From positions 1-64,000 of the forward strand of contig JAIQFY010000025.1 of NCBI GenBank assembly GCA_020072965.1: a stretch of DNA of 64,000 bases, in the 5' to 3' direction. Made by a program: the position numbers and the translations under genes. The first letter of the stretch is position 1, and each line of letters opens with the position of its first letter. The notes under the pieces are model-generated. The model was not told where the DNA came from and searched no databases. It saw only the letters and a list, made by a program, of their open reading frames with translations. The DNA comes from Terriglobia bacterium. GTDB lineage: Bacteria > Acidobacteriota > Terriglobia > JAIQFV01. Shown here piece by piece: positions 36,293-51,442 of this stretch.

Positions 36293-37116
36293 TAATAGGA
36301 GGGATTATAGGCCTGTGAGAAGTGACCCGGCAAGATAAACCACTGGGCGGGGTGGCGCACATATGCGCTTGTGACATGTGCGCGGCTTCCTTGAGAACTG
36401 CGGCCCACCCGGGAAATACAATTCACCTCGTTGTTACTGAAACGCCAATGAACCCCGTTAGTCTTCAAATTCATTCCACACGATCCATCGCTAGCAAACT
36501 CGCGTCCCCCAGATGATAAAATCGCCAACTGGACCAGGGCCAGTAATTAGGGACAGCCGCGAATGGCACGGAGTTAAGACCGCTGCTGTGAGAACCAAAT
36601 CTATCCCTGAAAGGGATGTCTATGTCAGCCCAGGGCAACGCCCTGGGTTCGTATCTCTGGGATTGATCAGGAACCCTGAAGGGGTTCCCTAAAAATTGAA
36701 AATACCATTGTACACCGCAAGAGCCATCCCAACGTCCGCCTGAGGGGGATGGCCATGGGTTAGGACATCCCGGATGTGTGTTGACCCTGCTCAGGCGCAG
36801 TCAGCTAGAATGCGACGTCTTATGGAATCCGCCGAGGCGGATTCGGGGAAACCAAACGATTTCAAACCCAGGGCGTTGCCCTGGGCTGATGAATAAATCC
36901 CTTTCAGGGATTGGGTTGATGCCGATTGCCCCACCCTGACCTTGGCGCCATTCGGGACAGCCACCCATTTCTGACCTGAAATCGGTGGCCATCCATGATT
37001 CACTCAACGAGTCAGTGGCAGCTTAATTCGACGGGTGGCGCACACATGCGCTCATGGTCCGCCCAGGCGGATGCGGTGTCCTTGGGAACTGCGATTAACC
37101 TGCCATACCTTCGAAT
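36293..37116. other. Gap with REP hairpins, RAYT scrap and inverted-repeat element
   Basis: Over 800 bases with no gene. REP hairpin at 36346-36384, then a RAYT 3' scrap (about 36470-36545: ATGATAAAATCGCCAACTGG), then the inverted-repeat element at 36600-36932, then another REP hairpin at 37031-37076 which leads into the intact RAYT. Confidence 0.75.
36600..36932. repeat. ~330-bp element with 45-bp terminal inverted repeats
   Basis: Left end about 36602-36650 (ATCCCTGAAAGGGAT, then CAGCCCAGGGCAACGCCCTGGG). The right end, about 36866-36922, is the same series in reverse complement. Each arm itself contains two small palindromes (CCCTGAAAGGG, CCCAGGGCAACGCCCTGGG). No ORF lies inside. It looks like a MITE or a pair of inverted palindromic repeats. 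Confidence 0.75.
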
Positions 37117-37668
37117 TCAATCCACATGATCCATGCGTAGCACGCTTGCGTCTCCCAGATAATAAAATCGCCAACTGGACCAGGGCCAGTCCCCGGGCTC
37201 CTTGACCAGTCTTCGCTTCACGGGATTGGCGTGCATGTAATCGAGTTTCTCCAAACGCTTCTTCTCACTGGAAATATTCATGTCAAAGAAGCGTCGCTGC
37301 CAGACGCGGTATTGAGAGGGTCCGTGGAAGGTAGCAGGCAGCGCAAATCGCGATAGGGTCTTTTGACACCAGGCGAATTGTAGGTTTGCTTTGAGCTGAT
37401 CCAAGACATAGAGGGCGGTCCGCTCCTTGAGGCTTTGCATGATTCTTGAGGGATCGGCTATGAGGAAGGGCCAAATCAACATGTGGAAATGCTCCGGCAT
37501 CAGCACCCAACCGACCAGCTTGAACTCCAGTTCCAAGCTCAGTTCGCGGAGGATGTCGACAAATGCAAACTTGAAGCGGTCAGAATCAAAAGCGCGGGTG
37601 CGACGATAGGTGCTGCAGGTGATGTAGTGAAGATTGCTGTGTTCATAAAAGCGACGGAGTTTGGACAT
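37117..37668 (-). CDS. RAYT: REP-associated tyrosine transposase, copy A
   Basis: 183 residues. A Y1-type HUH transposase of the REP-associated branch of the IS200/IS605 superfamily. It cuts single-stranded DNA and acts on REP hairpins. The metal site HFH is seen in VLMPEHFHMLIWP, the usual HGPSQYRVWQRRFFD block follows, and the C-terminal LDYMHANPVKRRLV and DWPWSSWRFY are family hallmarks. The candidate nucleophile Tyr lies in the C-terminal half. Both flanks carry REP hairpins in the expected places (37031 and 37798). It is about 84% identical by eye to copy B at 39786. The ATG at 37668 (MSKLRRF) matches copy B; 37677 is a possible alternative. Confidence 0.92.
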   Translation of the reverse strand: MSKLRRFYEHSNLHYITCSTYRRTRAFDSDRFKFAFVDILRELSLELEFKLVGWVLMPEHFHMLIWPFLIADPSRIMQSLKERTALYVLDQLKANLQFAWCQKTLSRFALPATFHGPSQYRVWQRRFFDMNISSEKKRLEKLDYMHANPVKRRLVKEPGDWPWSSWRFYYLGDASVLRMDHVD

Positions 37669-37797
37669 GATGAGCATTCCCGGGGGAAGGGTTTAAGAAA
37701 CAAGGGATTAAAAACACTGGCAGTTGCTGTGTGGTCGCACCGCACCCCCCGATGGATCGGGGTATGCGCCACCCTGGCCATGCCGGTTCGTTGCACC

Positions 37798-37834
37798 GCA
37801 CACATGCAAAAGGCGCATGTGTGCGCCACCCTGG
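37798..37834. repeat. REP-like hairpin beside RAYT copy A
   Basis: CGCACACATGCAAAAGGCGC then ATGTGTGCGCCACCC: the CACACATGC/GCATGTGTG arms pair around an AAAAGGC loop. It is in reverse orientation to the hairpin at 37031, so the RAYT gene is bracketed by inverted REPs. Confidence 0.8.
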
Positions 37835-37853
37835 GGGACATAACACAAAACAA

Positions 37854-37889
37854 AAAAGCTCAGCTCCGGATGGGGGAGACTGAGCTTTT
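37854..37889 (-). terminator. Rho-independent terminator after tRNA remnant A
   Basis: AAAAGCTCAG and CTGAGCTTTT are perfect complementary arms; read on the minus strand the stem ends in a U-run. It once ended transcription of the tRNA whose 3' part survives at 37895. Confidence 0.8.
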
Positions 37890-37894
37890 GATTT

Positions 37895-37947
37895 TGGTTG
37901 CGGGGGCCAGATTTGAACTGGCGATCCCGCCGCGGCGGGATTATGAG
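37895..37947 (-). tRNA. Partial tRNA-fMet 3' half, copy A (remnant)
   Basis: The minus strand carries CCA, the acceptor 3' strand and a perfect T-arm (GCCAGTTCAAATCTGGC), then departs from the tRNA. Where the anticodon stem should start, a 16-base perfect palindrome (TCCCGCCGCGGCGGGA) replaces the usual CCTTCGGG (plus strand), followed by the ATTATGAG remnant. It is non-functional, and is probably an old attachment site. Confidence 0.75.
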
Positions 37948-38813
37948 TTTGCTTGTTTTCGGAAAAATCAATCATTTGGCGGGACGCATAGCCGTGCTAA
38001 GTAGTGCAAAGGAATGGTGGGGAAGTTCTATTGAACCCCAATTGAACCCCCGCTGTTAGTGTAGAAAAGGGGCGGTATTGAGGGCTCAAGACCGGCAAAA
38101 ATCCTTCGAACCTGGGGAGAAATCTTCCAAAGGAGACAAAAAGCCTTTGGGCGATTTTCCCGAAGGTCGGACTCCGCGAGGAGCAGAATTTCTCCAATCT
38201 CCCCAGGAAACCCCATTCACTTCTCTTGCTGAATGATCTCGAAATGCTCGATTCGAAATTTCCGTTCCCGTGGACAATTGAGCACAGTTCACCCACGGCA
38301 TGGTGAACCTCCTCCCTCGGCCCTGAGGACCAGTGTATGGCAGCCACTTGGAATCGTTTGGTCTCCAACCCTGCAAATTGTTCGAAGCCGCCTTGCTGGA
38401 ATTCGAATTACAAATCTAGTTGAATTCAAATTTCAACACGGCGTAAAATTCATTTGTGGCCAGCCGTCCCTGGATCGGCCCCCGATATTGTTCTGATCGG
38501 CTGGGTGGTCAAGGCTTTCGATTCAACGATCCGATTCCCCGAACTGAACGGTAAAGGAGAGGTGCGGAAGCCGAACTCACTTGGGTGGGAGTATTGCGTA
38601 CATATTCTCATTTTGTTGCCACACGGTGGCTTGAATCAAGCAGCGCATCGGCACGGCCCAAAAACTCTTGCGTCATCGGGATGTGACCACGAGTATCCAC
38701 CGAGGCCGACATGCATTTTCTGAATCAGGCTGGCGGAGGAGTTCGTAGCCCGTTCGATGAGTTAAGAAATCTAACGACAGGGTGTTATACAGATCCGCAT
38801 AAGACGCCACCGT

Positions 38814-38830
38814 TCCGCATATTATGCGGA
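38814..38830. promoter_or_regulatory. Palindrome TCCGCAT-ATT-ATGCGGA, same arms as the fic operator
   Basis: Identical 7-base arms to 28395-28411, with a half site (ATCCGCAT) at 38793. No Fic gene is near; the next gene is the DUF3455 lipoprotein, 82 bases away. Confidence 0.55.
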
Positions 38831-38911
38831 TCAATCTAATCAATGTCAGGTGCCTCAAACCCGCTCAAGTGCTACACTTCGCAGCGACTGTTCACCGCTG
38901 AAAGGAAATCT

Positions 38912-39457
38912 ATGAGATCGAACCTCTTGTTTACCGGCGTTCAGATTGCGGTACTCCTGTCCGCCAGTGGTTGTGCCAGCGGCCCTGTTGTCACCCGGCC
39001 GGAGGTTCCAGCGAACCTACGCCCTCCAGCCGGACAGGTGGTGTTCCTGGAAGCGTTCGCCACTGGTGTTCAAATCTACGAATGCGCATCCAAGTCCGAT
39101 CAGCCGTCTTCGTATGAGTGGGCCTTCCGTGCGCCCGAAGCAGCACTCGCAGACCGGTCAGGCCGCTCTATTGGCAAGCACTATGCCGGGCCGACATGGG
39201 AGTCCACAGATGGTAGTGCAGTTGTCGGAGAGGTCAAGGCGCGCGACCCAGGGCCGACCCCTTCGGCAATTCCCTGGCTGCTGCTCAGCGCCAAATCAAC
39301 CACTGGCACCGGCGTGCTGAGCAAGACCACGAGCGTTCAGCGCGTCCAGACGGTCGGCGGAGTCGCACCCACAGAGCCGTGTGCCGCCGCAAACGCCGAG
39401 CAGGTGGCACGGGTGCCCTACACCGCCACCTACTATTTCTATCGCGCCGCCCAGTAG
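38912..39457 (+). CDS. DUF3455 lipoprotein
   Basis: 181 residues from the ATG at 38912 (AAAGGA six bases upstream); the track start at 38843 is too early. Residues 1-20 form a lipoprotein signal with a lipobox (LLSASGC). The mature part has the DUF3455 pattern: PPAGQVVFLEAFATGVQIYEC near the start, the WAFRAPEAAL and GKHYAGPTWESTDGSAVVGEV blocks, and YTATYYFYRA at the end. The family has no known biochemical role. It stands between RAYT copies A and B inside accessory DNA, so it may have arrived with the repeats or with an older element. Confidence 0.8.
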   Translation: MRSNLLFTGVQIAVLLSASGCASGPVVTRPEVPANLRPPAGQVVFLEAFATGVQIYECASKSDQPSSYEWAFRAPEAALADRSGRSIGKHYAGPTWESTDGSAVVGEVKARDPGPTPSAIPWLLLSAKSTTGTGVLSKTTSVQRVQTVGGVAPTEPCAAANAEQVARVPYTATYYFYRAAQ

Positions 39458-39785
39458 ACAGCCGGTCCGGTCCCCCAGGCCATGGAGGCACCTAGCCCTT
39501 CCATCGAGCGGACCCTCTCCGGCCTGCGGCCTCCGCGGGCCGCTCATGCCAGACGTTAGGCTTACTGAAAGGCAAGGGCTTCAGTCGTGGACCAAGGCGA
39601 AGTCGGGTTCGATTTTCGACCGCCACTATTTGGGGTATACGACTCTGTTGTTACCTATGGGTTCGCGGGGTGGCGCACACATGCGCTTGTGGCATGTGTG
39701 TGGTGTCCTTGGGAACTGCGATTCCCCTGAGAAGGACGACCTCTTTGTTACTCATATGCCAAAGGATCCCGCCGCGACTTCCGAT
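39458..39785. other. Gap with a REP hairpin downstream of RAYT copy B
   Basis: The REP hairpin at 39665-39703 (GGGTGGCGCACACATGCGC ... GCATGTGTGTGG) and the conserved RAYT 3' flank (TCCTTGGGAACTGCGATT) fill most of it. No gene seen. Confidence 0.6.
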
Positions 39786-40337
39786 TCATTCCACATGATC
39801 CATCGGTAACAGGCTGGTGTCTCCCAAGTAATAAAATCGCCAGCTGGACCAGGGCCAGTCCCCAGGGTCCTTGACCAGCCTTCGCTTCACGGGATTGGCG
39901 TGCATGTAATCGAGTTTTTCAAGGCGCTTTTTCTCACTGTAGATATTCATGTCAAAGAAGCGCCGCTGCCAGACGCGGTACTGAGAGGGTCCGTGGAAAG
40001 TGAGAGGCAGCGTAAATCGCGATAGGGTTTTTTGACACCAGGCGAATTGCGGGTTTTCTTTGAGCTGATCTAAGACAAAGAGGGCGGTTCGCTCTTTGAA
40101 ACTTTGCATGATTCTTGAAGGATCGGCTACGAGGGAGGGCCAAATCAACATGTGGAAATGTTCCGGCATCAGCACATAACCGACCAGCTTGAACTCCAGT
40201 TCCGACCGCAATTCCCGGAGCGTGTCGACAAATGCAATCTTGAAGCGCTCAGAATTAAATGCGCGAATGCGCCGATAGGTGCTGCAGGTGATGTAGTGAA
40301 GATTATTCCCCTCATAACAACGGCGAAGTTTGGGCAT
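39786..40337 (-). CDS. RAYT: REP-associated tyrosine transposase, copy B
   Basis: 183 residues. The track ORF is 270 residues, but its first 87 come from reading through a REP hairpin, a terminator and a tRNA remnant; the ATG at 40337 (MPKLRRC) aligns with copy A. It has the same features: MPEHFHMLIWP metal site, HGPSQYRVWQRRFFDMNI, LDYMHANPVKRRLV and DWPWSSWRFYYLG. All motifs are intact, so either copy could act on the REP hairpins dotted over the window. The flanks repeat the order seen at copy A (REP - RAYT - REP - terminator - tRNA 3' half), so the whole 1.2-kb module has been duplicated. Confidence 0.92.
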   Translation of the reverse strand: MPKLRRCYEGNNLHYITCSTYRRIRAFNSERFKIAFVDTLRELRSELEFKLVGYVLMPEHFHMLIWPSLVADPSRIMQSFKERTALFVLDQLKENPQFAWCQKTLSRFTLPLTFHGPSQYRVWQRRFFDMNIYSEKKRLEKLDYMHANPVKRRLVKDPGDWPWSSWRFYYLGDTSLLPMDHVE

Positions 40338-40430
40338 AGAGTTTCTCAACGGGGGAATGATTGAAAGAGAGAAAGGGGACAGGGTCGGACGCTTCAATTC
40401 ACAATAGTTCGAGGGCTGCAGTTGTTCCAT

Positions 40431-40466
40431 CGCACACATGCAAAGAACGCATGTGTGCGCCACCCT
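40431..40466. repeat. REP-like hairpin beside RAYT copy B
   Basis: CGCACACATGC, loop AAAGAAC, GCATGTGTGCG: a perfect 11-base stem. It is followed by CCACCC, which is the conserved side sequence of the family. Confidence 0.85.
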
Positions 40467-40488
40467 AGTGAGACGTAACACAAAACAA

Positions 40489-40524
40489 AAAAGCTCAGGT
40501 TCCGATGGGGGAAACTGAGCTTTT
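40489..40524 (-). terminator. Rho-independent terminator after tRNA-fMet 3' half B
   Basis: AAAAGCTCAG and CTGAGCTTTT are complementary and, read on the minus strand, are followed by more Us. It is homologous to 37854-37889. Confidence 0.85.
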
Positions 40525-40529
40525 GATTT

Positions 40530-40574
40530 TGGTTGCGGGGGCCAGATTTGAACTGGCGACCTTCGGGTTATGAG
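40530..40574 (-). tRNA. Displaced tRNA-fMet 3' half, copy B (attL)
   Basis: The minus strand reads CTCATAACCCGAAGGTC, then GCCAGTTCAAATCTGGC, then CCCCGCAACCA: anticodon loop with CAT, variable region, a perfect T-arm and the acceptor strand of an initiator tRNA. The 5' half is absent. Shared with the intact tRNA-fMet at 51366 are the 17 bases of the anticodon region and the acceptor end, while the T-arm stem differs. This is what is left when an element inserts within the anticodon region and brings its own replacement 3' end. Confidence 0.85.
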
Positions 40575-40994
40575 TTTGCTAACGTTCAGTAAAATCAATC
40601 ATTTAGCGGTACGCATAGCCGTGGTAAGTAATGCAAAGGAATGGTGGGGAAGTTCTATTGAACCCCAATTGAACCCTCACTGCCAAGAGGCGGATGAAGG
40701 CGTTTTGAGGGCTTAAAAATGAGAAAAATTCTTCGACTGCGGCCAGAAATTCTTCAGAAACCGCAAAAAACCGTTGGGCGATATTTCTCAAGGTCGATTT
40801 CGGCGAAGAGGCGGTTTTCATGACCCAAAATGGCCTTAGGGCGAGCTCGTCCGACCTCACGGCAATGGAAAGAGGAGGATGACTCTTATTCAGCCCCAAT
40901 AGGAATCTTGTTACTGAAGGAGAAATAAGGATTTGTTGAGACTCCAAAAACTTAAGAAACCCTTAGCGGTTTTAATCTGAAAGGAGAAATTAGT

Positions 40995-41153
40995 ATGGCT
41001 ACTGAAACAAAACGAGAATTGCTTGATCGTATCGAAGGGCTGGAAACGGAAAACGAGGTCCTTCAGTCTCAAATTGACGAAATTTCCGATATCATCGGCG
41101 ATAGTGGAGAAGAAGAGCAAGGAAGCGAGGACGATGACCAGGGGGAAGAGTAG
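40995..41153 (+). CDS. Small acidic coiled-coil protein
   Basis: 52 residues, too short for the ORF track. The ATG at 40995 has AAAGGAGA eight bases upstream, one of the best ribosome sites in the window. The first 30 residues make a heptad-type coiled coil (LLDRIEGLETENEVLQSQ) and the last 20 are almost all acidic (SGEEEQGSEDDDQGEE). I recognise no family. Such acidic small proteins can mimic DNA or act as scaffolds or anti-restriction factors, but that is only an analogy. It is followed 45 bases later by the HNH gene and probably shares its transcript. Confidence 0.65.
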   Translation: MATETKRELLDRIEGLETENEVLQSQIDEISDIIGDSGEEEQGSEDDDQGEE

Positions 41154-41197
41154 CCGCGCCGGCTGAGTGTGGCGAGCGCTGGCGAAAGTCCCCGGAG

Positions 41198-41599
41198 GTG
41201 ATAACTGACCGAGCGCACCGATACCGCGCCCAGCAGTGTGCGCCAACCGGCCCGCGCAAGTGTGAGCGTTGTGGGTCCACACGTTTCTTGGTGGTGGACC
41301 ATTGCGACGGTGATGAGTGGAATGATTCGCCAGAAAATCTACGTTGGCTTTGCAAATCCTGTAATACGCGACTCGGCATCGCGATGGCAAGAGCAGGGCA
41401 AGGCAGAAAAACCCGGCAGTACAATCCCCCAGGTGCAGAGAATCTCGCGCAATATGTACAGGCAGCCGTCACGCATCAACGAGGCGCGCATGACGAAGGC
41501 GGACGGGTTATCCACGAGACATCCACACGTAAACGCCAGGAGTTTGCTCAGGAAATATGGCGAAGGCGACGCAGGCGCGAAACCGACCGGCGACGCTGA
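41198..41599 (+). CDS. HNH-endonuclease-like protein
   Basis: 133 residues starting at GTG 41198; no other in-frame start exists after the previous gene. Residues 22-58 show the zinc-bound HNH pattern CERCGSTRFLVVDHCDGDEWNDSPENLRWLCKSC in short: CxxC, then DH with Asp, Asn, then LCxxC. HNH proteins nick or cut DNA. The C-terminal tail is very rich in Arg (WRRRRRRETDRRR) and could hold DNA. In phages such small HNH genes sit near the packaging genes; here no terminase follows, so it may be a relic of a phage-derived element or an element-encoded nuclease. Confidence 0.7.
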   Translation: MITDRAHRYRAQQCAPTGPRKCERCGSTRFLVVDHCDGDEWNDSPENLRWLCKSCNTRLGIAMARAGQGRKTRQYNPPGAENLAQYVQAAVTHQRGAHDEGGRVIHETSTRKRQEFAQEIWRRRRRRETDRRR

Positions 41600-41789
41600 C
41601 CGCATGTCTATGCCGACCCACGCGCTGAACTACTATCTACTGATCATGCGCGGAGAGGTGGGGTCTACAGTGCGAGAATGGGAATAGGGGCCGTTGAAAG
41701 ATCGATTCTCACGAAGATAATCAAAGCAGCAGTGTCAATGCGGATGAAACCCTAACCCACGGCAGTCGAACGGTTAGAAGTTGGATATG

Positions 41790-42524
41790 TTATTTCACAT
41801 CCGGTGAGTTTATTAATGCCTTCAGCGATTGGAGCGTTGAGGCCCTAGAAATTCCGGAATTAATTCGGGTTGATCCAGACCCGTCTGAAATCGGGATTAT
41901 CGATAAGGCTACTCCCACGACCTCGCCGGTTCTCAGGGAAATAACCGGACTTCCGCTCTGTCCCTTGTTTACCAAGGCATCAAGCAATAGTTCAGTGACA
42001 GGAAGTACAACTTGAATCTTTACAAATCCAGAAACAATTCCTCTGGATGCGATGGGATGCTCGTCCATGGAAAAGTGTCCAATTATGAAAACCTCGTCTC
42101 CCATTTCCGACTCTTCCTTGGCCAACGGTAGAGACTTAATTTCAAAATCTGCCCATTGAGATCTTACGGAATTGGGATCAAATTTTAGGATGGCAAGGTC
42201 GTGGACATTATCAACGTTCTCTACGACAGCTGAGACACTGAATTTTGCAGTTCCAGTCTCGGACGATTTCTTGATGGTTAAGAAGCCCCCTCGGTTATCG
42301 TTGATCATCTTAATGTATTCGATAATAACATGACCCGCAGTTACAACATGTTTTCCATCACCCACAAAAAACCCCGTCCCTAATGGGATTGTTGTTTTGA
42401 TATCGGCGCTCGAATAACCTATCTGGACAACAGACTTTGCGATTTCAGAATACTTGTTTGTTTGGGCTGCACCGGCCAATGGTATTGCTAAGATGAGAAG
42501 AATAAATAAGAGCTTGTTCGACAT
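41790..42524 (-). CDS. Exported trypsin-like serine protease
   Basis: 244 residues. A signal peptide (LLFILLILAIPLAGAAQ) is followed by a single trypsin-like domain with a full triad: His65 in VVTAGHV, Asp109 in VHDLAILKFD and Ser190 in KGQSGSPV. There is no PDZ domain, unlike DegP/HtrA, so it is a minimal S1-fold protease that should act outside the cytoplasm. It belongs to the element cargo and is transcribed away from the proteasome-like hydrolase, 175 bases from that gene's start, so the two share a control region. Substrate unknown. Codon use and AT content look higher than in the core genes around 51-63 kb, which agrees with transfer. Confidence 0.85.
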   Translation of the reverse strand: MSNKLLFILLILAIPLAGAAQTNKYSEIAKSVVQIGYSSADIKTTIPLGTGFFVGDGKHVVTAGHVIIEYIKMINDNRGGFLTIKKSSETGTAKFSVSAVVENVDNVHDLAILKFDPNSVRSQWADFEIKSLPLAKEESEMGDEVFIIGHFSMDEHPIASRGIVSGFVKIQVVLPVTELLLDALVNKGQSGSPVISLRTGEVVGVALSIIPISDGSGSTRINSGISRASTLQSLKALINSPDVK

Positions 42525-42699
42525 GTTGTTTCTCTTCCTTTTGATTGGCGATTATACCTTAAAATAGAGTACTTCGCTTTTGTTACATGGAATAGCGCCG
42601 TGGCCTATGAATAGGCTTTTCCGCTTATTCGCTTATTCTTCTTTGACACAATGCACTCACTGGAATGATAATCATGACAATAAAGGGGAGGTAATTCCA
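42525..42699. promoter_or_regulatory. Divergent control region between the two protease genes
   Basis: A 175-base AT-rich stretch that must hold both promoters. I can see the GGAGGT ribosome site (42688-42693) of the plus-strand gene. The track start for that gene (TTG 42580) lies in here and has no ribosome site. Confidence 0.5.
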
Positions 42700-43644
42700 G
42701 TGACTGTGTGCGTTGCTGCTATTTGTGGACCAGGTACAGTTTTTGGGGCCTCAGACCGAATGCTGACTGCGGGCGATGTTCAATTTGAACCTACGCAGCC
42801 CAAAATTTGGCAATTGACAACATCAATAGCCGTCATGGTAGCTGGTGACTCGTCTCTTCAGGTAGAGATTCTTCAAGCTGTGGGTAAGGATGTAAAAACT
42901 AGAATAGAGGCAGAGCCGACGAATTGGTGGATGGTCAAGGATGCAGCAGAACTGTATAGCCAACATTACTGCGAGATTCGGTGTAAGCGTTCTCAAAGGA
43001 CCATACTTTCCCGGTTTGGATTGGATCATGGCACTTTCATCTCCCGGCAACAACAGATGTCAGAAGTGCTTGTGAGGCAACTGGCAACAGAGTTGATAAA
43101 GTTCTCGATGCCGTCAGTCTCTGCCATATTTGCAGGAGTTGACCCAGCGGGAACCCATATTTATGTCGCGGACGATGCCAACATAGAATGTTTAGACACG
43201 GTCGGTTTCGCGGCAATAGGCATAGGGAGATGGCACGCGAACTCGCAGTTCATGTTCGCTGAGCACGATGGAAGGAAACCCTATCCGGAAACGCTACTTT
43301 TGACATATGCCGCTAAGAAACGAGCTGAGGTGTCTCCTGGAGTTGGGGAGGGCACTGATATGTTTGCCATAGGACCATTTCTCGGGTCGTATATCAACAT
43401 CTCTCCTGAAGCGGTAGATGAACTTGAGAGGATGTATCAAGCGACGCGCGAGGAAGAGAGGAAAGCGTCTGTAAAGGCAAATCGGGAGGTAAATCGATTT
43501 TTCGAAAAGCTCCTTACGGCCGCGAGTGCTAAGGAGCAGGAAATCGCACCCAAAGAAAGTGGAGGAAATCCACCCGCTAACCAAGAACGGATTCGGAATG
43601 TCGCTGAGGAAAGCAAGCCAGAAGATGAGCCTTGCGAAAGCTGA
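42700..43644 (+). CDS. Proteasome-beta-like Ntn hydrolase (stand-alone)
   Basis: 314 residues from GTG 42700, with GGAGGT seven bases upstream. The protein then begins Met-Thr-Val-Cys, so removal of Met would expose a catalytic Thr1. Numbered from that Thr, the pattern is that of a proteasome beta subunit: Asp18 in FGASDRMLTAGD and Lys34 in QPKIWQL (Asp17 and Lys33 in 20S beta), then IAVMVAGD, and later GFAAIGIGRWHANSQF, which resembles the conserved G-S-G strand region. The last 90 residues are charged, helical and disordered-looking (REEERKASVKANREVNRFF). It is not HslV (too long, no HslU beside it) and has no alpha subunit or ATPase partner nearby. I infer a self-compartmentalised or oligomeric peptidase used by the mobile element. 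Confidence 0.8.
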   Translation: MTVCVAAICGPGTVFGASDRMLTAGDVQFEPTQPKIWQLTTSIAVMVAGDSSLQVEILQAVGKDVKTRIEAEPTNWWMVKDAAELYSQHYCEIRCKRSQRTILSRFGLDHGTFISRQQQMSEVLVRQLATELIKFSMPSVSAIFAGVDPAGTHIYVADDANIECLDTVGFAAIGIGRWHANSQFMFAEHDGRKPYPETLLLTYAAKKRAEVSPGVGEGTDMFAIGPFLGSYINISPEAVDELERMYQATREEERKASVKANREVNRFFEKLLTAASAKEQEIAPKESGGNPPANQERIRNVAEESKPEDEPCES

Positions 43645-43825
43645 ATCGGAAAAGAAGGATTGTTGAGACACGGCCCCAACAATAAGTAAAATCTACCAAA
43701 CCCCAAACTAGAGAGCTACCGCAAGAACAAGTTGATTGCCGCATTGTTTCCACTGTGGTAAAAACCAGGCATGACCGGACGGAGTCCGGCAGTTTCTCCC
43801 TGTGTGAATGCTATAGCCGGAAAAC

Positions 43826-46800
43826 ATGCCTGAAACCAACGAGTGGACATTCGCGTCAGACGTTTGCAAAACGATCCAGGCAATTCTCACTGAGAATCCA
43901 GGTCTGCCCTTTTCCGAAGCGAAGGTTGAAGTCGGAGCAAAGGGCACAAGGAAGCGCCGGGATCTGACCCTCTATGGGATGATAGGCGAAGCTGCCCTGA
44001 CCGGTGAAATTAAGCTCCCAGACCGTCCCGACGGGCAAAGCCCCTATTCCAGTGCCCTCCTCCAAGACGCATTCGAGAAGGCGAACGCCAAAGGTGTGGA
44101 GTATTTCTTTACCTGGAACGTCAACCGCTTCGTTCTGTGGAAGACATTCGAAGCGAAGAAGCCTGTTGCCGAGCGGGACCTGGAGCACTTCAATGTCACT
44201 TCCATAAGAAGCAACGAAGAGCTCTCCAACCCTGGAGTGCAGGCAGAGATAAAGGGTGTCCTCACTCAAATCCTTGGCCGCTTCGCCCGCATTCTGGAAG
44301 GCACCGAACCGATCCGTTCAAGGCCGCTAGATGAAAAATTTATTCGCGTTCTGGAATCCGCACTGGAAATTCCGATCTTGCAGACCTGGGCCGCCGTCAG
44401 CCGCCTTTATTCGAGTGACCACAAGTTTGCCCGCCAGTTAGATGTATGGATGCGTGACTCACAGGGCTGGCTTATCTCTACCGACCCCCGAATCGTTAGA
44501 GATAACTTGGAGCGGACGGCTAAATTCACTTGCTATGTTCTTGTTAACAAAATCGTATTCCAACAAGCTCTTCGACGAAGGTTTTCCACGCTTCGCAGAA
44601 TTCGTGTTTCCGAGAGTGTAAAGACGAGTTCCAAGCTCCGAGACGTTTTCCAAGCTGCCTTTGAGGAAGCCAAACGCGTTTCCCATGACTATGAGACTGT
44701 TTTTGACGGCGACTTTGGAGATACCGTCCCTTTTTTGGAAGATGCAACCGTCGAAAATTGGCGAGAACTCATGCGGGAGATTGAAGGATTTGATTTCAGC
44801 AAGATCGATTATGATATTATCGGGCATATCTTCGAACGCCTGATTAGTCCCGAAGAGCGCCACCGCTACGGCCAGCACTATACTCGAAGCGAGATTGTTG
44901 ACCTCATAAACTCCTTCTCGATCCGCAAGCCGGGAGCAACGGTCCTTGATCCTGCCTGTGGTGGAGGAACGTTCCTTGTGCGGGCCTACGTTCTCAAGCG
45001 GGAGCTTTCTGGCTCTACTCTCCCTCACGTTGACCTTTTGCAGCAAATCAAAGGGGTTGATATCTCTGCTTATGCCGCACATTTGGCGACTATCAACCTT
45101 GCCACACGGGACCTCATAGACGAGAGGAATTATCCACTCGTTGCCCGAAGCAATTTCTTTCATGTGAAGAAGGGCGAGGCTGTCTTTCACATCCCTCTGT
45201 CTGTTCACGGCAAGGGCAAGCAAATGGTTCCACTTGAAATTGGCGAAGTCGATGCGGTAGTCGGCAATCCGCCCTATGTTCGCCAAGAGGAGCTTCCCAA
45301 AGATTATAAGAAGCTTCTGACTGACCTGATTGAGAGTGAATTCCCTGATGCCGGGCTCTCGGGTCGGTCCGACCTTCACTGCTATTTCTGGCCGCATGCT
45401 ACGAGCTTCTTGAAGGAGGACGGCTATTACGGTTTCCTGACTTCAAGTGGTTGGCTTGATACCGAATATGGTTTTCACTTGCAGGAATGGCTCTTGCGGC
45501 ATTTTGCCATCCTTGCCCTTTTCGAGTCCAATTGTGAGCCGTGGTTTACAGGCGCAAGAGTTACGACGGTTGCAACCCTCCTTCGGCGTGAATCCGACCC
45601 CGCAAAGCGGGCCAGCAACACGATACGGTTTGTGTCCCTAAGGAAGCCCCTAAAGGAAGTGTTGGAGAGCTTTAATCCCGCGCCACTGAAAGCTGCCCGC
45701 ATGCTTCGGGACTTTGTGGAAAGCCAGAATGAAAACCTTGTGGATGAACACTGGCGCATTCGCGTTGTGAATCAACATGAACTTTGGAAGGTCGGCTGTA
45801 TTGGCGGCGTGGCGGGTGTTGCCAGTGTTGCTTCGGACCCAATTCCTGTCCAAGCCAAAAACGCTACCATTAAAGGGGGCTTTTCATTTCTCAAGGGTGA
45901 ATATCTGGGTGGCAAATGGGGAATCTACCTTCGAGCGCCCGATATTTTTTTCAAGTTGCTTGACCGGTGTGGGTCTCGGCTAGTCCCTTTGGGACAGCTT
46001 GCGGAAATACGTTTTGGAGTCAAATCCGGCGCAGATGACTTCTTCTATGTCCGCGATGTTACCGAAGATGAAATCACCAAGTGCAGCGCTGGGCTTCCTC
46101 TTGGCAGCCCGCAAATCGCCCGCCGCTTCAAGGAAGTGTGGAGTATCCCCCTTGAGGATACGAACAGAGTCCGCATTGTGGAAGCAGGTGATCGCTCGCG
46201 ACATATGATAGAGGCCGAGTATCTTGAGCCTGAAGTTCATAGCCTTATGGAAATTGATTCAGTGGAGATAGACCCAGCCAAACTTTCGCGCAAGATTCTC
46301 TTGGTTTCCGACCCATTGGAACAGCTCAAGGGAACTCATGTTCAGAAATACATAAAATGGGGTGAGCGCGAAGGGTTCGATCAAGGAGCAACTTGCGCTG
46401 CGAGAGGAAGGACTCGCTCTTGGTACGATCTAGCTGTTGTGCGTCGCAGCCCTATTCTCTGGCCAAAGGCCCATCAGTACCGTCACATCGTTCCTATTAA
46501 TGAAAAAAGATTCATTCCTAACTGCCGCATGTACGATTTGTTCTTGGCAAATGGAGTAGATTCGGACCTGTTAGCGGGAGCACTTAACTCTACAATCGTT
46601 GCACTTTTCAAATTCCTTTACGGTCGTCCTGTTGGACGTGAGGGTAGCTTGGATACCGAGGTTGTCGATGTAAACATGATGCTCGTTCCGGACGTTCGAG
46701 CGATCCATCCACAAGCTTCAGAAAAAACCAAACATGCAATCGGTAAAATGCGGGAGAGGTCGGCGTTGCCGCTCATTGAAGAGTTTGAGTTGGCAGACCG

Positions 46801-47404
46801 ACAGTCCTTGGATGACGCGACGCTGGAATTACTTGGGATTGCTGACGCCGAGGAAAGAGAGAGCCTGCGAATCCTGCTGTATTCGCAAGTTCAAACACTT
46901 TACAAGGAAATCCGAGACGTTGAATTAAAGAAGCAAGTCGAACGCCGTATAACCTCCCGCCGGGACCGAGCCAGCCCGCGTACGATCGCCGGGGAGATTT
47001 GGGAAGAGTTGGATAAGACCCAGCTTCGGATTTTCCCGGAGGAGTTCATCCCCAAGGGGGAGGCAACCGAAAGCGTGACGCTGCCGGCAGGGACCCCCAA
47101 GGTACTGGATGACCTTTTCGAGAGGGGGGCATTGCAGATCAACGAAAATGTGGTTCGTCTAGGTTCGAAAGGCCGCGCTGAGTTTGCAGCGAAGATTGTA
47201 GAACTCGGCCATTACGGAAAGACCCAGGTTCCCCAAACGGATCGAGTCTGTGAGCGCGCCCTAGAAACCTACCACGGTTACGAAGCTCAGATGGAGGCTC
47301 AATTCCGCGCACTCGCCGAAGAGCGCAGCGCTGATTCCGAAATTCAAGCCCGCATCGTCCGGGAGCTTTGTAAACTTCTTCGCACGTTCAACCGCTCACA
47401 TTGA
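43826..47404 (+). CDS. Single-chain restriction-modification enzyme (type IIG-like)
   Basis: 1192 residues. The N-terminal 150 residues carry a PD-(D/E)xK nuclease pattern (Asp46 in KRRDLTLYG, Glu61-x-Lys63 in TGEIKLPD). A helical connector leads to an N6-adenine methyltransferase core: motif I DPACGGGTF at residue 375 and motif IV NPPY at 481. The C-terminal half includes a likely target-recognition region (ILLVSDP ... PNCRMYDLFLANG) and helical dimer parts. Such enzymes methylate one adenine in their site and cut unmethylated DNA nearby without separate subunits, protecting the host or keeping the element in place. ATG 43826 is the only sensible start. The next gene follows after 12 bases and is likely co-transcribed. 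Confidence 0.88.
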   Translation: MPETNEWTFASDVCKTIQAILTENPGLPFSEAKVEVGAKGTRKRRDLTLYGMIGEAALTGEIKLPDRPDGQSPYSSALLQDAFEKANAKGVEYFFTWNVNRFVLWKTFEAKKPVAERDLEHFNVTSIRSNEELSNPGVQAEIKGVLTQILGRFARILEGTEPIRSRPLDEKFIRVLESALEIPILQTWAAVSRLYSSDHKFARQLDVWMRDSQGWLISTDPRIVRDNLERTAKFTCYVLVNKIVFQQALRRRFSTLRRIRVSESVKTSSKLRDVFQAAFEEAKRVSHDYETVFDGDFGDTVPFLEDATVENWRELMREIEGFDFSKIDYDIIGHIFERLISPEERHRYGQHYTRSEIVDLINSFSIRKPGATVLDPACGGGTFLVRAYVLKRELSGSTLPHVDLLQQIKGVDISAYAAHLATINLATRDLIDERNYPLVARSNFFHVKKGEAVFHIPLSVHGKGKQMVPLEIGEVDAVVGNPPYVRQEELPKDYKKLLTDLIESEFPDAGLSGRSDLHCYFWPHATSFLKEDGYYGFLTSSGWLDTEYGFHLQEWLLRHFAILALFESNCEPWFTGARVTTVATLLRRESDPAKRASNTIRFVSLRKPLKEVLESFNPAPLKAARMLRDFVESQNENLVDEHWRIRVVNQHELWKVGCIGGVAGVASVASDPIPVQAKNATIKGGFSFLKGEYLGGKWGIYLRAPDIFFKLLDRCGSRLVPLGQLAEIRFGVKSGADDFFYVRDVTEDEITKCSAGLPLGSPQIARRFKEVWSIPLEDTNRVRIVEAGDRSRHMIEAEYLEPEVHSLMEIDSVEIDPAKLSRKILLVSDPLEQLKGTHVQKYIKWGEREGFDQGATCAARGRTRSWYDLAVVRRSPILWPKAHQYRHIVPINEKRFIPNCRMYDLFLANGVDSDLLAGALNSTIVALFKFLYGRPVGREGSLDTEVVDVNMMLVPDVRAIHPQASEKTKHAIGKMRERSALPLIEEFELADRQSLDDATLELLGIADAEERESLRILLYSQVQTLYKEIRDVELKKQVERRITSRRDRASPRTIAGEIWEELDKTQLRIFPEEFIPKGEATESVTLPAGTPKVLDDLFERGALQINENVVRLGSKGRAEFAAKIVELGHYGKTQVPQTDRVCERALETYHGYEAQMEAQFRALAEERSADSEIQARIVRELCKLLRTFNRSH

Positions 47405-47416
47405 GCTGGGAGAAGC

Positions 47417-48118
47417 ATGACAAGGAAACAGCTTCGAATGCAAGTACCATTTAGGGTCAGGAGTCAATCCGAGCTCCCAAAATGTGCTGTAGAAGGCTGC
47501 AATGGATACCCAGATGTTTCTTTGTGGGATCGCGAGTTTTGTTCGACGCATGCTGAGCAGCTTGAGCAGACCGTCGCGCGAAAATATCATGATGCGTTCA
47601 TAGGAGAGCTAAAGGCCCGATGCGAGAAAACCGAGCTGCGATTTGAGCAGGAGCCATATCAATATTCAATCTCCAAGACAAGCCCATGCTCTGTCATGTC
47701 TTGCCGAGAGGCCGCGATTACTGGCAACGGAGAGTTAATACCTTACAAGCACCCTGGGCGTGTGTACCTCTGTGAAAAGCATAATAACTTATTCTGGACG
47801 GTTAACAGCTCCGAAGATAAAAGTCGTCTGTTATGGGAATTGTCGCGGGTACGCAGTTCTCGGAAAGACAAAGAGCGTCAAAGGCTGGTTTCTGCTGTTC
47901 GTGAAATAACGCCCAAGTACAAAGGGCAGAAAGACTATATCCTGTCTGTATGTAAAGAACTGCGCGTTCGAAAACTACCTATGTTTGACAAATGGTTGCA
48001 GAGGTGGAAGCAGGATCAGAAAATTTCCATCGAGCCTACAAACTGGCCACGAGCTTACCAAGAAAAGTTACCCAGGGCCGCTATTCAGAAATTCATCTCT
48101 CGATACCGCAAACGATAG
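47417..48118 (+). CDS. Two-zinc-knuckle protein next to the R-M gene, unknown
   Basis: 233 residues. ATG 47417 follows GGGAGAAG, 12 bases after the R-M stop, so the two form an operon. Two similar metal-binding modules are seen: CAVEGC then FCSTHAEQL (residues about 23-48), and CSVMSC then LCEKHNNLF (about 93-125), each of type C-x3/4-C ... C-x2-H. The C-terminal 110 residues are basic and helical (RVRSSRKDKERQRLVSAVREI). I know no family with this layout. Because of its position, it may help the R-M enzyme, for example as a specificity or control factor, but it lacks the usual HTH of C proteins. Confidence 0.65.
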   Translation: MTRKQLRMQVPFRVRSQSELPKCAVEGCNGYPDVSLWDREFCSTHAEQLEQTVARKYHDAFIGELKARCEKTELRFEQEPYQYSISKTSPCSVMSCREAAITGNGELIPYKHPGRVYLCEKHNNLFWTVNSSEDKSRLLWELSRVRSSRKDKERQRLVSAVREITPKYKGQKDYILSVCKELRVRKLPMFDKWLQRWKQDQKISIEPTNWPRAYQEKLPRAAIQKFISRYRKR

Positions 48119-48327
48119 CCACTCTCACTCACCATTAAGAAACGAACTGAGAGCGGAATCGACTCTGCCTATACCCCTCAAAACAAAACACATCTGAGAA
48201 ACGCCCCACTCGCACTCCATATAAGCTCCCATCTGTTCAATTCACCCCGTAGCATGTGGCAAGATTCCCCCGACAATCAGGGCCGTTCGGTCGCCCGCCA
48301 TCTTAATCGAAGGAGCACAAGGCCAAA

Positions 48328-48630
48328 ATGAATTTCGATTCCTTACTGCAAGATATTCGAGTGGAACTAAGACTCGTGGGAAACGAGAGCGGGAAGGTCA
48401 GGGCCATTTGCAGCGTTGAGTTTGTTTTTGTCCAGGCTGGATCGATTTGGGTGGATGGATTTCGCGTAGTGGAATCCCCCAATCAAAAGTTTTGGGTCGC
48501 CCAGCCGTCTCGTCGAGGGTCGGAGAAGTATTTCAAGACAGTCGAGCTCAAGGGAGCGATAAAGGGTTTAGTAGAAACAGCGATTCTCACTCAGTTTGAA
48601 AGGGTCAGGCAGACCGCCAAGAATGGATAG
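48328..48630 (+). CDS. SpoVG-like nucleic-acid-binding protein
   Basis: 100 residues. The centre follows the SpoVG plan: GKVRAICSVEF, then IWVDGFRVVE, then FWVAQPSRRG, then YFKTVELKGAIKGLVETAIL, which parallels MRAIASI, IRVIDG, FVAMPSRR and the C-terminal helix of SpoVG. SpoVG proteins are small dimers that bind DNA and RNA and tune gene expression; copies are also common on plasmids and integrative elements. ATG 48328 has AAGGAG 11 bases upstream, a little far. It may regulate element genes. The similarity is seen by eye and is moderate. Confidence 0.6.
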   Translation: MNFDSLLQDIRVELRLVGNESGKVRAICSVEFVFVQAGSIWVDGFRVVESPNQKFWVAQPSRRGSEKYFKTVELKGAIKGLVETAILTQFERVRQTAKNG

Positions 48631-48946
48631 CAGGGCATTCAATTTCGGGAGTCGAGGACAGTTCGGGCGGGCAGAGGCGCGGGCAACGAGCTTACCCTTC
48701 TCTCGACCCGCGACGCGACGGAAGTGTTGTCGTCGGGCCGGGCTCTGTGGGCTGACGATGCTGTTGCAGGAACTCGGCGAGAACGGCCGACATGGCGACA
48801 GTTAATGCAGTATGGTTGTCAGCCGAATTGATTTACATGCGAAAGTTGCTGGGCGGCATGCATGCCGAACGCCCGGTGCGGATATAAAGAAGGGGCATAG
48901 CAGCATCGGAGATATTACCCATCCTTGTAACACGGAGTGTGTCCTA
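48631..48946. other. Region before the Rep gene; possible double-strand origin
   Basis: No gene that I trust. A GGGCGGCATGCATGCCGAAC then GCCC hairpin at about 48852-48876 lies 70 bases before the Rep start and would suit a rolling-circle origin, since Rep proteins often nick within or near such a hairpin close to their own gene. This is inference only. Confidence 0.35.
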
Positions 48947-49600
48947 ATGAAGACTCTACATCTGCGGGATTTCAAGGTCGCCCAAGAGAGGTGGGCATTT
49001 CGTCAGCGTGAGCGGCGGCTGCTGCCCCAAGCATTCGGGGAGTTTATTGGGAGTTTGGCAAATTGGGATTGGTTCATAAACCCCTTAACATTCAGAGATG
49101 ACTCTCGGACAGGTGGGCCGCCAGTCCGAGACGTCGCTTTGGCTCGGATTTACGAGTACCTTTCGCTTCTTCAAAAGGCAGCTTCAGGCCCTATTGGGTG
49201 GGTGATCGCCGAAGAGTTTGGCTCGATTGGCGGACGGTGGCACTGCCATATATTGATTGCAGGAGTTCGCAACTTGCCCAGAAAGTTTTGGTGGGCTGAG
49301 GCTCACAGACGTTTCGGCTGGACACGATTAGAGCCCTTTGACCCTACGAGGGGGGCTGCATTCTATGCGGCAAAGTATGCGGCTAAGGCGCTCGGTAACA
49401 TTCACTTCGGGGGAATCCTTGGGGATCATAGGCTCTCCTTGCTGGCTCCCAGCAGCGAGGGTGTTGAAGTCTTTGCACTCTCTGAGGGATCTTCTGAGTC
49501 GAAACGAGTCACGGAGACCCAAGTTGAAATCGCAGCTTCGGCGGAGCTGCCGCAAGCCTTTTATCGGTTGTCGATGCCTCGGTGGCACCGCAATTCGTAG
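48947..49600 (+). CDS. HUH rolling-circle replication initiator (two-tyrosine Rep)
   Basis: 217 residues from the ATG at 48947; the track start at 48812 adds unrelated sequence. The HUH metal site is RWHCHILIAGV (His99, His101). The helix FYAAKYAAKAL carries Tyr140 and Tyr144 three residues apart, which is the YxxxY arrangement of the phiX174-A/P2-A type Rep superfamily. Such proteins nick one strand of the origin, remain joined to its 5' end and start rolling-circle replication. Short overall length fits Rep proteins of plasmids and satellite elements. With integrase and excisionase beside it, the element can probably excise, replicate as a circle, and reinsert. Confidence 0.82.
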   Translation: MKTLHLRDFKVAQERWAFRQRERRLLPQAFGEFIGSLANWDWFINPLTFRDDSRTGGPPVRDVALARIYEYLSLLQKAASGPIGWVIAEEFGSIGGRWHCHILIAGVRNLPRKFWWAEAHRRFGWTRLEPFDPTRGAAFYAAKYAAKALGNIHFGGILGDHRLSLLAPSSEGVEVFALSEGSSESKRVTETQVEIAASAELPQAFYRLSMPRWHRNS

Positions 49601-49690
49601 TTGGATTGAAGCGGACATCCTGGCAACCAGGGATACAAATGAAAAAATGAAGAATGCCAGCGATGATCGACTTGAAAGATTTGGAGAACA

Positions 49691-49800
49691 CCCTTGGTTT
49701 TTTCTTCAAAAACCCTAGTAAGTGTCTTGGAAAGAGCCTTCGGAAAGCCCTTGGGATAAACCTTGGAAAACCATGGAAAAACCTTCGGTTGGAGCCCTGG
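49691..49800. repeat. Short CCTTGGAAA-type repeats before xis
   Basis: Six or so variants of CTTGGAAAG / CCTTCGGAAAG / CCTTGGAAAA occur in 110 bases directly before the excisionase gene. They could be binding sites for Xis or the arm-type sites of the integrase. They are degenerate and the role is inferred. Confidence 0.4.
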
Positions 49801-49830
49801 AGGGGGATTGGAAGGAGTGGAAGAGCTGCA

Positions 49831-50049
49831 ATGTATGAATTTGAGCCTCTAATGGACGCGACGGAAGCTGCGACACTCCTCCAAATTCACCCCAAGACCT
49901 TGCTCCAAATGGCCCGCGACGGCAAGGTCCCGGCTCACCGGATAGGAAAATATTGGCGCTTTCGAAGAACGGATCTCGATAGGTGGTTGCGCTCGGGTGT
50001 AAACTGTGGCCGCTATGCGTACCGCCCAAGAGAGGAAAGTGAACAATGA
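49831..50049 (+). CDS. Excisionase-like small helix-turn-helix protein
   Basis: 72 residues from the ATG at 49831, which follows AAGGAGTGGAAGAG. The track start at 49654 runs through the repeat region and is rejected. The protein is a single MerR/excisionase-type winged helix of the helix_turn_helix_17 kind: DATEAATLLQIHPKTLLQMA, then GKVPAHRIGKYWRFRRTDLDRWL. It ends with ATGA overlap on the integrase gene, so the two are translationally coupled. By position it should direct the integrase towards excision. Confidence 0.85.
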   Translation: MYEFEPLMDATEAATLLQIHPKTLLQMARDGKVPAHRIGKYWRFRRTDLDRWLRSGVNCGRYAYRPREESEQ

Positions 50050-51164
50050 ACAACGGGCGTGTACGTTATCAGTCTGGCAGTTTGCAATTGAAAGGGAAAA
50101 AAGGAAAGGAGCTTTGGACACTTCGGTTTTACGAAAGCAGCCTTGAGGGACAGCGCCACTATAGGCGCATTGTGGTTGGAACAAAGGCAGAATTTCCGAC
50201 CCGATTTGAGGCCCTTCGAAAGGCTGAAGCGTTTCGGTTGTCCATCAACACGGGTACAGTCCAGAGAGCCCCGGTCCTGTTCGGAGAGGTCAGTGAACGA
50301 TACCGCCAGGAGGAATTGCCGGAACGTTTTTCCACCCGAACCTCTTACATCACTTTGCTTCGAAAGTGGATTGAGCCGGTTTGGGGATCAACGCGAGTGG
50401 ATGACATTCGGGCCTTGGCAGTCGAACGATGGCTGAATCAATTGGAATTGGCGCCAAAGACCAAAACCAATATCCGGAACATGATGCATTTGCTCTTTGA
50501 AAATGCCCGACGCTGGGAGGTTGTCGAAAAGAATCCCATCGAGTTGGTCCGGCAAAGTTCAAGACGCCGTTTCACTCCGAGACGATTGACGGCGGAGGAA
50601 TTGAGAAGTTTGCTGAAAAACTTGACTGAGCCGTGTCGCACTATGGCGATTCTTGCAGCATGCCTGGGCTTGCGAATTGGCGAGATCATCGGTTTGCAGT
50701 GGGGAGACATCGATCTTCTGAGGAAAACGTTGAGCATCCGGCGCACTGTCTGGCAATACCACGTCGGGCCTGCAAAAACGGAATACTCAGAGGCGGTGTT
50801 GCCCCTGGCTGATGAACTCGTTTCCTTGCTGGAAAGCTGGCTCTCACAGGCGCACTACCGAACCACGACTGATTGGGTGTTTGCTTCCGACAAGGGAGGT
50901 CTGAGGGATGCCGATAAACTCCGCTCCAAGGTACTTCAACCGGCGGCGGTAAAAGCCAAGCTCGGAAAGATTGGCTGGCATACCCTCCGACATTCGTTCG
51001 CTACCGCCCTTGATGGCGCGGGGGCTCGCATGAAGGTTGCACAGGAGCTCATGCGCCATGCCAACATCGCGACCACGATGGATGTTTACACGGGAGTGAT
51101 GGAGAGGGACAAGCGGGAGGCGGCGGGTCAAGTGGCTAAGACGTTTTTGGGAACCGTGCAATAA
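50046..51164 (+). CDS. Tyrosine recombinase, integrase of the tRNA-fMet element
   Basis: 372 residues. Phage-type integrase that recombines the element with the chromosome at tRNA-fMet. Catalytic residues are all in place: Arg210 in GLRIGEIIGLQW, His312 and Arg315 in HTLRHSFAT, His338 in MRHANIATTMDVY and the nucleophile Tyr348. The N-terminal 60 residues look like an AP2-type arm-binding domain and about 70-160 like a SAM-like core-binding domain. Start overlaps the xis stop by four bases. It lies 202 bases from the intact tRNA-fMet and reads towards it, the common layout for such elements. Length is normal. Confidence 0.95.
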   Translation: MNNGRVRYQSGSLQLKGKKGKELWTLRFYESSLEGQRHYRRIVVGTKAEFPTRFEALRKAEAFRLSINTGTVQRAPVLFGEVSERYRQEELPERFSTRTSYITLLRKWIEPVWGSTRVDDIRALAVERWLNQLELAPKTKTNIRNMMHLLFENARRWEVVEKNPIELVRQSSRRRFTPRRLTAEELRSLLKNLTEPCRTMAILAACLGLRIGEIIGLQWGDIDLLRKTLSIRRTVWQYHVGPAKTEYSEAVLPLADELVSLLESWLSQAHYRTTTDWVFASDKGGLRDADKLRSKVLQPAAVKAKLGKIGWHTLRHSFATALDGAGARMKVAQELMRHANIATTMDVYTGVMERDKREAAGQVAKTFLGTVQ

Positions 51165-51314
51165 GGGATGAGACAGCCGTTTCGAAAAGTGCTTTTCGTG
51201 GGATTCACCTATGGCTCTCCCATCGTTTCACCTATCGGTTGAGCATTGGTGAGTTTTTGGGGTTTTCCCGACGATTCCCAGGGGTTGAAATGGGTCTCAA
51301 TTCTTATCGAACCC

Positions 51315-51343
51315 TAAAAAAACCCCAGCCGAAGCTGGGGTTT
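51315..51343. terminator. Bidirectional terminator between int and tRNA-fMet
   Basis: CCCCAGC-CGAA-GCTGGGG stem. Read on the minus strand it ends in seven Us, which suits tRNA-fMet; read on the plus strand it ends UUUCAUU, which could end the integrase transcript. Confidence 0.85.
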
Positions 51344-51365
51344 CATTGTAACCACTTGATTAATT

Positions 51366-51442
<77 letters not shown>

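Follow-up and report, generated by a model that had tools for sequence, protein, structure and literature searches.

Solitary members of the proteasome superfamily have been described as 22 proteasome-like families, some of them occurring in phages, and no genomic context hinting at their function was found (Fuchs, Alva and Lupas, 2021; PMC8665760). Here, we describe a proteasome-beta-like N-terminal nucleophile (Ntn) hydrolase gene that lies on the plus strand at 42700..43644 of a 64,000-nucleotide stretch of DNA from a Terriglobia bacterium of the phylum Acidobacteriota (positions 1 to 64,000 of contig JAIQFY010000025.1, assembly GCA_020072965.1; hereafter, the window), together with its relatives. 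The family resembles the described PMI/PHI homologues in its bacterial, archaeal, and phage occurrence, and the helical insertion after H1/H2 that is found in the PMI-4/PHI subfamilies is also present in the model of the window protein (PMC8665760). Compared by description, the PMI/PHI homologues lack an informative context, whereas members of the window family are recurrent passengers of IS1595 and IS1 insertion sequence (IS) elements.

The family shares its fold and catalytic residues with 20S proteasome beta subunits, HslV, Anbu, and BPH, but differs from all of these in that it is not encoded with an alpha subunit, with HslU, or in an ATPase operon, and in that it has an extra helical insertion and rides on mobile elements. 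Passenger-bearing IS elements, such as those of the IS1595 family and others, consist of a transposase and an accessory gene placed between terminal inverted repeats and are flanked by 8-bp target duplications; the transposons that carry the homologues have the same architecture. Taken separately, IS passengers, mobile insertion cassettes, and solitary proteasome-like families are already known, and it is their combination that appears to be new; no description of proteasome-like IS1595/IS1 passengers was found in the literature searched, which lacked most subscription papers, so that earlier notice in the IS literature or in ISfinder entries is possible. An earlier reading of this DNA from sequence alone (the sequence-only reading) had called a proteasome-like peptidase carried as element cargo beside a restriction–modification (R-M) gene undescribed; this claim to novelty has to be narrowed, as the protein family itself was already known (PMC8665760).

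IS1595 and IS1 Transposases as Recurrent Partners

The neighborhood survey comprised 41 non-redundant homologous loci (577 kb in total), and clustering of the neighboring genes yields two transposase groups that recur just downstream of the homologues, assigned by Pfam to the IS1595 (PF12762 and PF12760) and IS1 (PF03400) families. The loci contain 20 matches to IS1/IS1595 transposases, 16 of which are no more than 1.2 kb away from the proteasome-like gene, compared with 3.6 expected under uniform placement; 15 of these 16 are downstream of the gene, and all but one of those 15 are convergent to it. The recurrent partner of the enzyme, missed by the sequence-only reading, is an IS1595/IS1 transposase of which the enzyme is the passenger, and the usual carrier of the family is an IS1595- or IS1-type transposon of soil bacteria in which the gene is usually convergent to the transposase.

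In the IS1595-type units, inverted repeats that score above shuffled controls enclose both transposase and passenger, and the repeat core GATTATTCACTTGACAAAAG is located ~100–130 bp before the passenger and ~140–200 bp before the start of the transposase. Target duplications of 8 bp flank units of this type at L044 (TGGTTAAG), L066 (CTATTTTA), L067 (TTAACTAT), L082 (CCTTAGCA), and L084 (CTCCTTGT). The IS1-type units have the conserved end GGGTAGTGGGTCAGTTTGAA, with target duplications at L063 (TAAATTTG) and L085 (GGTCAGTG). Terminal repeats are present at L049 and L068, where a clear target duplication was not found, and L083 has a strong inverted repeat of different sequence and falls outside the main transposase clade.

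At two loci, L075 (1.07 kb, with the duplication CGCTCTCT) and L070 (1.3 kb), the two terminal repeats enclose the enzyme gene but no transposase, and these units are mobile cassettes of the proteasome-like enzyme alone. They resemble mobile insertion cassettes in this organization, but their cargo is a proteasome-like hydrolase and not a resistance or regulatory gene. Transposon evidence extends to 20 of the 41 loci once L070, L075, L076, and L072 are added, the last of these having a terminal repeat only. One further locus (L052:8684-10807) has a tandem pair of different family members accompanied by part of an IS1 transposase.

Different Passengers on a Common Backbone

When the terminal-repeat pattern alone was used as the query, 2.9 million viral contigs gave two matches, both in known carriers, and 250 genomes gave G380, a known carrier, and G257, in which no homologue had previously been found. 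Both G257 elements, which have the duplications CTCTGTGG and TATCTTCA, carry a protein with a proteasome-like N-terminal signature convergent to the transposase; one of these passengers matches PF00227 above the Pfam cut-off (E = 1.5e-8), and the other is recognized by motif only. Most IS1595 transposases in the set of carrier genomes bear other passengers, including DUF3800, membrane, and HNH-like proteins, and the same survey added two proteasome-like passengers, those of L126 and L128. A tree of the transposases contains one well-supported clade (100/99) of 13 members, 11 of which have proteasome-like passengers, and the passenger label changes 3 times, versus 10.7 times when labels are shuffled.

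Transposases of this clade were also sought in 319 genomes regardless of their passengers, and six of the ten best-scoring new loci (L219–L228) have passengers that are proteasome-like by sequence (L219–L223 and L226). The L219 passenger scores above the Pfam PF00227 cut-off (28.6 bits), the window-family profile matches L222 (E = 1e-16) and L223 (E = 1.6e-48), and L220, L221, and L226 are assigned mainly by motif; position 1 is Ser instead of Thr in L220 and L223. Among the others, the passenger is mostly a membrane protein. An alignment of the divergent passengers shows that Thr/Ser1, Asp, and Lys are kept in 11 of 11, and the divergent passengers L093, L128, L219, and L240 pass the PF00227 cut-off. 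Single-passenger HHalign comparisons of L093, L128, and L094 with the window-family profile were not significant; L093 and L128 are nevertheless tied to the proteasome by Pfam, and the AlphaFold2 model of L093 (predicted local distance difference test score (pLDDT) 78) matches Anbu and 20S beta subunits with E ~5e-11.

Two pairs of elements carry different proteasome-like proteins on similar backbones. In genome G403, the transposase halves of L057 and L128 are 87% identical and their left ends 85%, and the flanks are also common to both, which would fit either two elements residing in copies of a single repeat or an exchange of the passenger in situ. In genome G265, the identity between L082 and L126 is 79% in the transposase half and 93% in the terminal repeat. 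The duplications of this second pair (CCTTAGCA for L082 and CCTGAGCA for L126) are one base apart between the loci and match within each, as expected of true target duplications. It is probable that hyper-diversified proteasome-like Thr/Ser hydrolases are the characteristic cargo of this IS1595 clade and of related IS1 elements, exchanged on a common backbone and exported to integrative elements and phages.

The enzyme might serve its transposon by processing the transposase or a host factor, thereby tuning transposition or element retention. In favor of this are its link, in a fixed convergent arrangement, to two transposase families that are related to each other, and the almost exclusive association of one IS1595 clade with proteasome-like passengers. 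This reading is the main rival of a role as cargo in conflicts between genetic elements, but it is rather unlikely, given that copies are also found without a transposase, in the integrative element of the window, in phage contigs beside terminase and portal genes, and in the transposase-less cassettes, and that sister elements of the same clade bear a membrane protein in place of the hydrolase.

Beyond the proteasome-like passengers, single convergent passengers of other families are common in acidobacterial IS1595 elements (L105, L109, L107, L110, L116, L224, L227, and L232), many of which have target duplications; these passengers include DUF3800, HNH-like, possible trypsin-like, and membrane proteins. 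The passengers of acidobacterial IS1595 elements are a large unexplored cargo set.

Fold and Catalytic Residues of the Window Protein

The window gene encodes a protein of 314 residues whose N-terminus, read from the GTG codon at 42700, is M-T-V-C-V-A-A-I-C. This start is favored over an upstream TTG at 42580 because the homologues, as seen in the alignment, start at the same Met-Thr. Counting from Thr1 (codon 42703..42705, plus strand, as are the codons that follow), the protein has Asp18 (42754..42756; Asp17 in 20S beta) and Lys34 (42802..42804; Lys33 in 20S beta), followed by a VMVAGD strand that contains the predicted oxyanion-hole glycine, the equivalent of Gly47 (42844..42846), which is Gly in 35 of 40 homologues. 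The open reading frame (ORF), its start, Asp18, Lys34, and the VMVAGD segment are all as the sequence-only reading had given them.

Enzymes of the proteasome fold use their N-terminal Thr to attack the peptide bond, with Lys as the base. A protein that starts with Met-Thr needs no propeptide, as methionine aminopeptidase removes Met before Thr. In the window protein, methionine aminopeptidase would strip the Met and expose Thr1 as the nucleophile.

The Pfam proteasome family PF00227 matches the window protein with 17 bits (E = 0.005) in a single-sequence hidden Markov model search, under the cut-off of 22.4, and a single-sequence profile search matches it to the NCBIfam archaeal beta subunit with E = 7e-4; the Pfam gathering cut-off is a detection limit and not a mechanistic feature. 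An AlphaFold2 model built with a seven-sequence alignment (pLDDT 78, predicted template modeling score (pTM) 0.72) matches 20S beta subunits in Foldseek, with a best E of 2e-12 and template modeling (TM) scores of 0.81–0.85 on the target, which places the protein inside the Ntn fold that had been proposed for it. The canonical strands and H1/H2 are present in the model, along with a helical insertion between H2 and S5 at approximately residues 103–134 (helices 103–106, 110–119, and 122–134) and a 47-residue C-terminal helix (236–282).

Among 40 homologues with an intact N-terminus, 38 have Thr at position 1 and the other two have Ser and Ala, respectively; Asp is present in 40 of 40 and Lys in 39 of 39, such that the residues whose loss in homologues would have spoken against the sequence-only reading are conserved; the window protein itself has all three. 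By its model and these residues, the window gene encodes a solitary proteasome-like Ntn hydrolase, in which Thr1 is predicted to be catalytic.

The shape of the model also bears on a rival reading, in which the enzyme is a specific ligase or transpeptidase of proteins, similar to connectase, and not a protease, or works as a monomer or in small oligomers. The insertion after H1/H2 and the long C-terminal helix are in line with this, as such insertions may block ring assembly (PMC8665760), and so is the lack of an ATPase partner. However, connectase has its insertion elsewhere (S3/S4) and is without H1/H2, which the window model has; we regard this reading as unlikely.

Integrative Element in tRNA-Met

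The window copy resides on an integrative element of ~10.8 kb inserted in a tRNA-Met gene (40575..51410, with ends good to the 17-bp crossover core). The left attachment (att) core GACCTTCGGGTTATGAG (17 bp) lies at 40558..40574, and the right core, of the same sequence, lies at 51394..51410 inside the tRNA-Met (cat) gene identified by ARAGORN as the integration target (51366..51442, minus strand). In a genome of the same genus (G310, locus L135), both flanks are joined via a single 17-bp core, which represents the empty site. A tyrosine integrase is encoded 0.2 kb from the tRNA-Met gene (50046..51164, plus strand; PF00589, E = 3e-25). The proposal that the gene is cargo of an integrative mobile element is borne out by the integrase, the two att repeats, and the empty site in the relative, and the window copy is a family member on a vehicle other than a transposon.

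The other genes of the element, on the plus strand unless stated, encode an HTH_17 excisionase-like protein (49654..50049; PF12728, E = 5e-16; PHROG excisionase, E = 1e-10), a replication-associated protein of the ORF2/G2P type (48812..49600; PF23343, E = 7e-7), a small HNH-nuclease-like ORF (41198..41599; PF13392, E = 2e-6), and, among further cargo, a SpoVG-like ORF. Flanking the hydrolase gene as separate cargo are a divergent gene for an exported trypsin-like protease (41790..42524, minus strand; PF13365, E = 8e-20) and a following gene for a type IIG-like R-M enzyme (43826..47404; PADLOC REase_MTase_IIG, E = 2e-47; Eco57I PF07669, E = 1.5e-17), both as the sequence-only reading had described them. 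To the left of the element, at 36300-40600, the window has recurring units that combine IS200-like (Y1) transposases with palindromic repeats and 3'-end fragments of tRNA, which suggest serial insertions at the same tRNA.

The contiguity of the three genes in the window had led to the idea of a module, in which the trypsin-like protease, the proteasome-like hydrolase, and the R-M enzyme form one joint defense or conflict system. A tblastn search with the trypsin-like protein and with a 233-residue protein of the window found no match in the homologue neighborhoods, and one with the R-M protein found a single weak and distant match. A PADLOC scan places a type IIG-like R-M region beside one further homologue, L080, which lends the module some support, but a trypsin-like gene recurs at none of the 41 homologous loci and an R-M gene at only this one, and the transposons bear the proteasome-like gene with neither. 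The module does not hold as proposed, and a joint system is highly improbable; a recurrent association of trypsin-like, R-M, and 233-residue proteins was rejected, the L080 case being the only one found in the homologue flanks. The R-M sequence near the L080 homologue (G745:C70) is apparently frame-broken.

Other Copies, Distribution, and Partner Genes

Contig C80 of the window's own genome contains a 3533-bp IS1-type transposon (C80:40009-43541; L242:6010-9542) with terminal repeats, an IS1 transposase, a convergent and different proteasome-like passenger (PF00227, 38.6 bits), and the perfect 8-bp duplication GGGCCCCC; no empty site was found for it, the locus having no close counterpart in the two relatives compared. 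Phage contigs L041/L042 and L045–L047 bear copies near terminase, portal, and other structural genes, with the homologue regions at L041:1539-7642 and L046:8223-11765 as examples. At L010:1216-3663 (minus strand), the homologue follows a 500-residue ATPase-like region (GHKL-type by eye) in frame and with no intervening stop, and may represent a fusion or an overlap; PADLOC gave no match for the ATPase-like region.

The family is rare and patchy in its distribution: its profile matches 9 of the 396 phylum genomes searched, and none of the 298 other genomes in the G748 phylum sample. The GenBank plasmid and phage collections gave no homologue at the E-value limits applied, and no relatives emerged from viral scans in which the query was either the window protein by itself or a pair of divergent passengers.

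ORFs and profile scans revealed no alpha subunit or AAA+ unfoldase gene within the integrative element or adjoining the hydrolase gene, which agrees with the absence of such partners stated in the sequence-only reading, and the canonical HslVU of this genome is encoded on another contig, C59. Because no unfoldase gene lies alongside, the likely action of the enzyme is ATP-independent peptidase or transpeptidase activity toward particular proteins. An ordinary role in host proteostasis, as an additional HslV-like quality-control protease, would fit the fold and triad, which are as in HslV-type proteases, and BPH and Anbu likewise have no known unfoldases (PMC8665760). This is very unlikely, since HslVU is already encoded in the genome and the family is rare, patchy, and located on mobile DNA.

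Passenger Status and Possible Role in Conflict

The fold and triad, the passenger status in relatives, the different passengers on a common backbone, and the element with its empty site were computed here, and they are best explained together if the enzyme belongs to a family of mobile passengers, with the window copy carried on the tRNA-Met element as cargo for conflict. This explanation as a whole is probable; that the family is a mobile passenger is very likely, and a role in conflicts among mobile elements, phages, and hosts is quite possible, if somewhat short of probable. Portable conflict cargo is favored over housekeeping because the enzymes are extremely diversified and occur on transposons, integrative elements, and phages alike. 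The biochemical role that we infer may be that of conflict cargo, transposition control, or ligation.

Several observations weigh against this explanation. The window copy has no IS1595/IS1 terminal repeats or transposase fragment, the best matches being at background level, and its transposon-passenger ancestry is therefore assigned by family only. Transposon evidence is missing at about half of the homologous loci, many of whose neighbors look chromosomal. PF00227 has no match in the divergent passengers L094, L220, and L222, and L226 is far under its cut-off. Within the same class, the nearest relative that was found (L057; 45–47% identical) has Ala in place of Thr1. The L057 gene (L057:10001-10897, the same as L002) has the Ala codon GCT at the expected Thr1, and an inactive copy or a point mutation is possible.

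If proteasome-like hydrolases are cargo of IS1595 and IS1 elements in this way, they would probably form a class whose logic parallels that of TnpB/IscB on IS200/IS605, with proteins in place of DNA as the target. Their status as transposon passengers, with some members very divergent, provides the first contextual handle on solitary proteasome-like enzymes, and catalytic mutants can now be used to probe the function of the enzyme in assays of transposition, conjugation, and phage infection. These results suggest that, on selfish DNA, enzymes of the proteasome fold have undergone repeated diversification.
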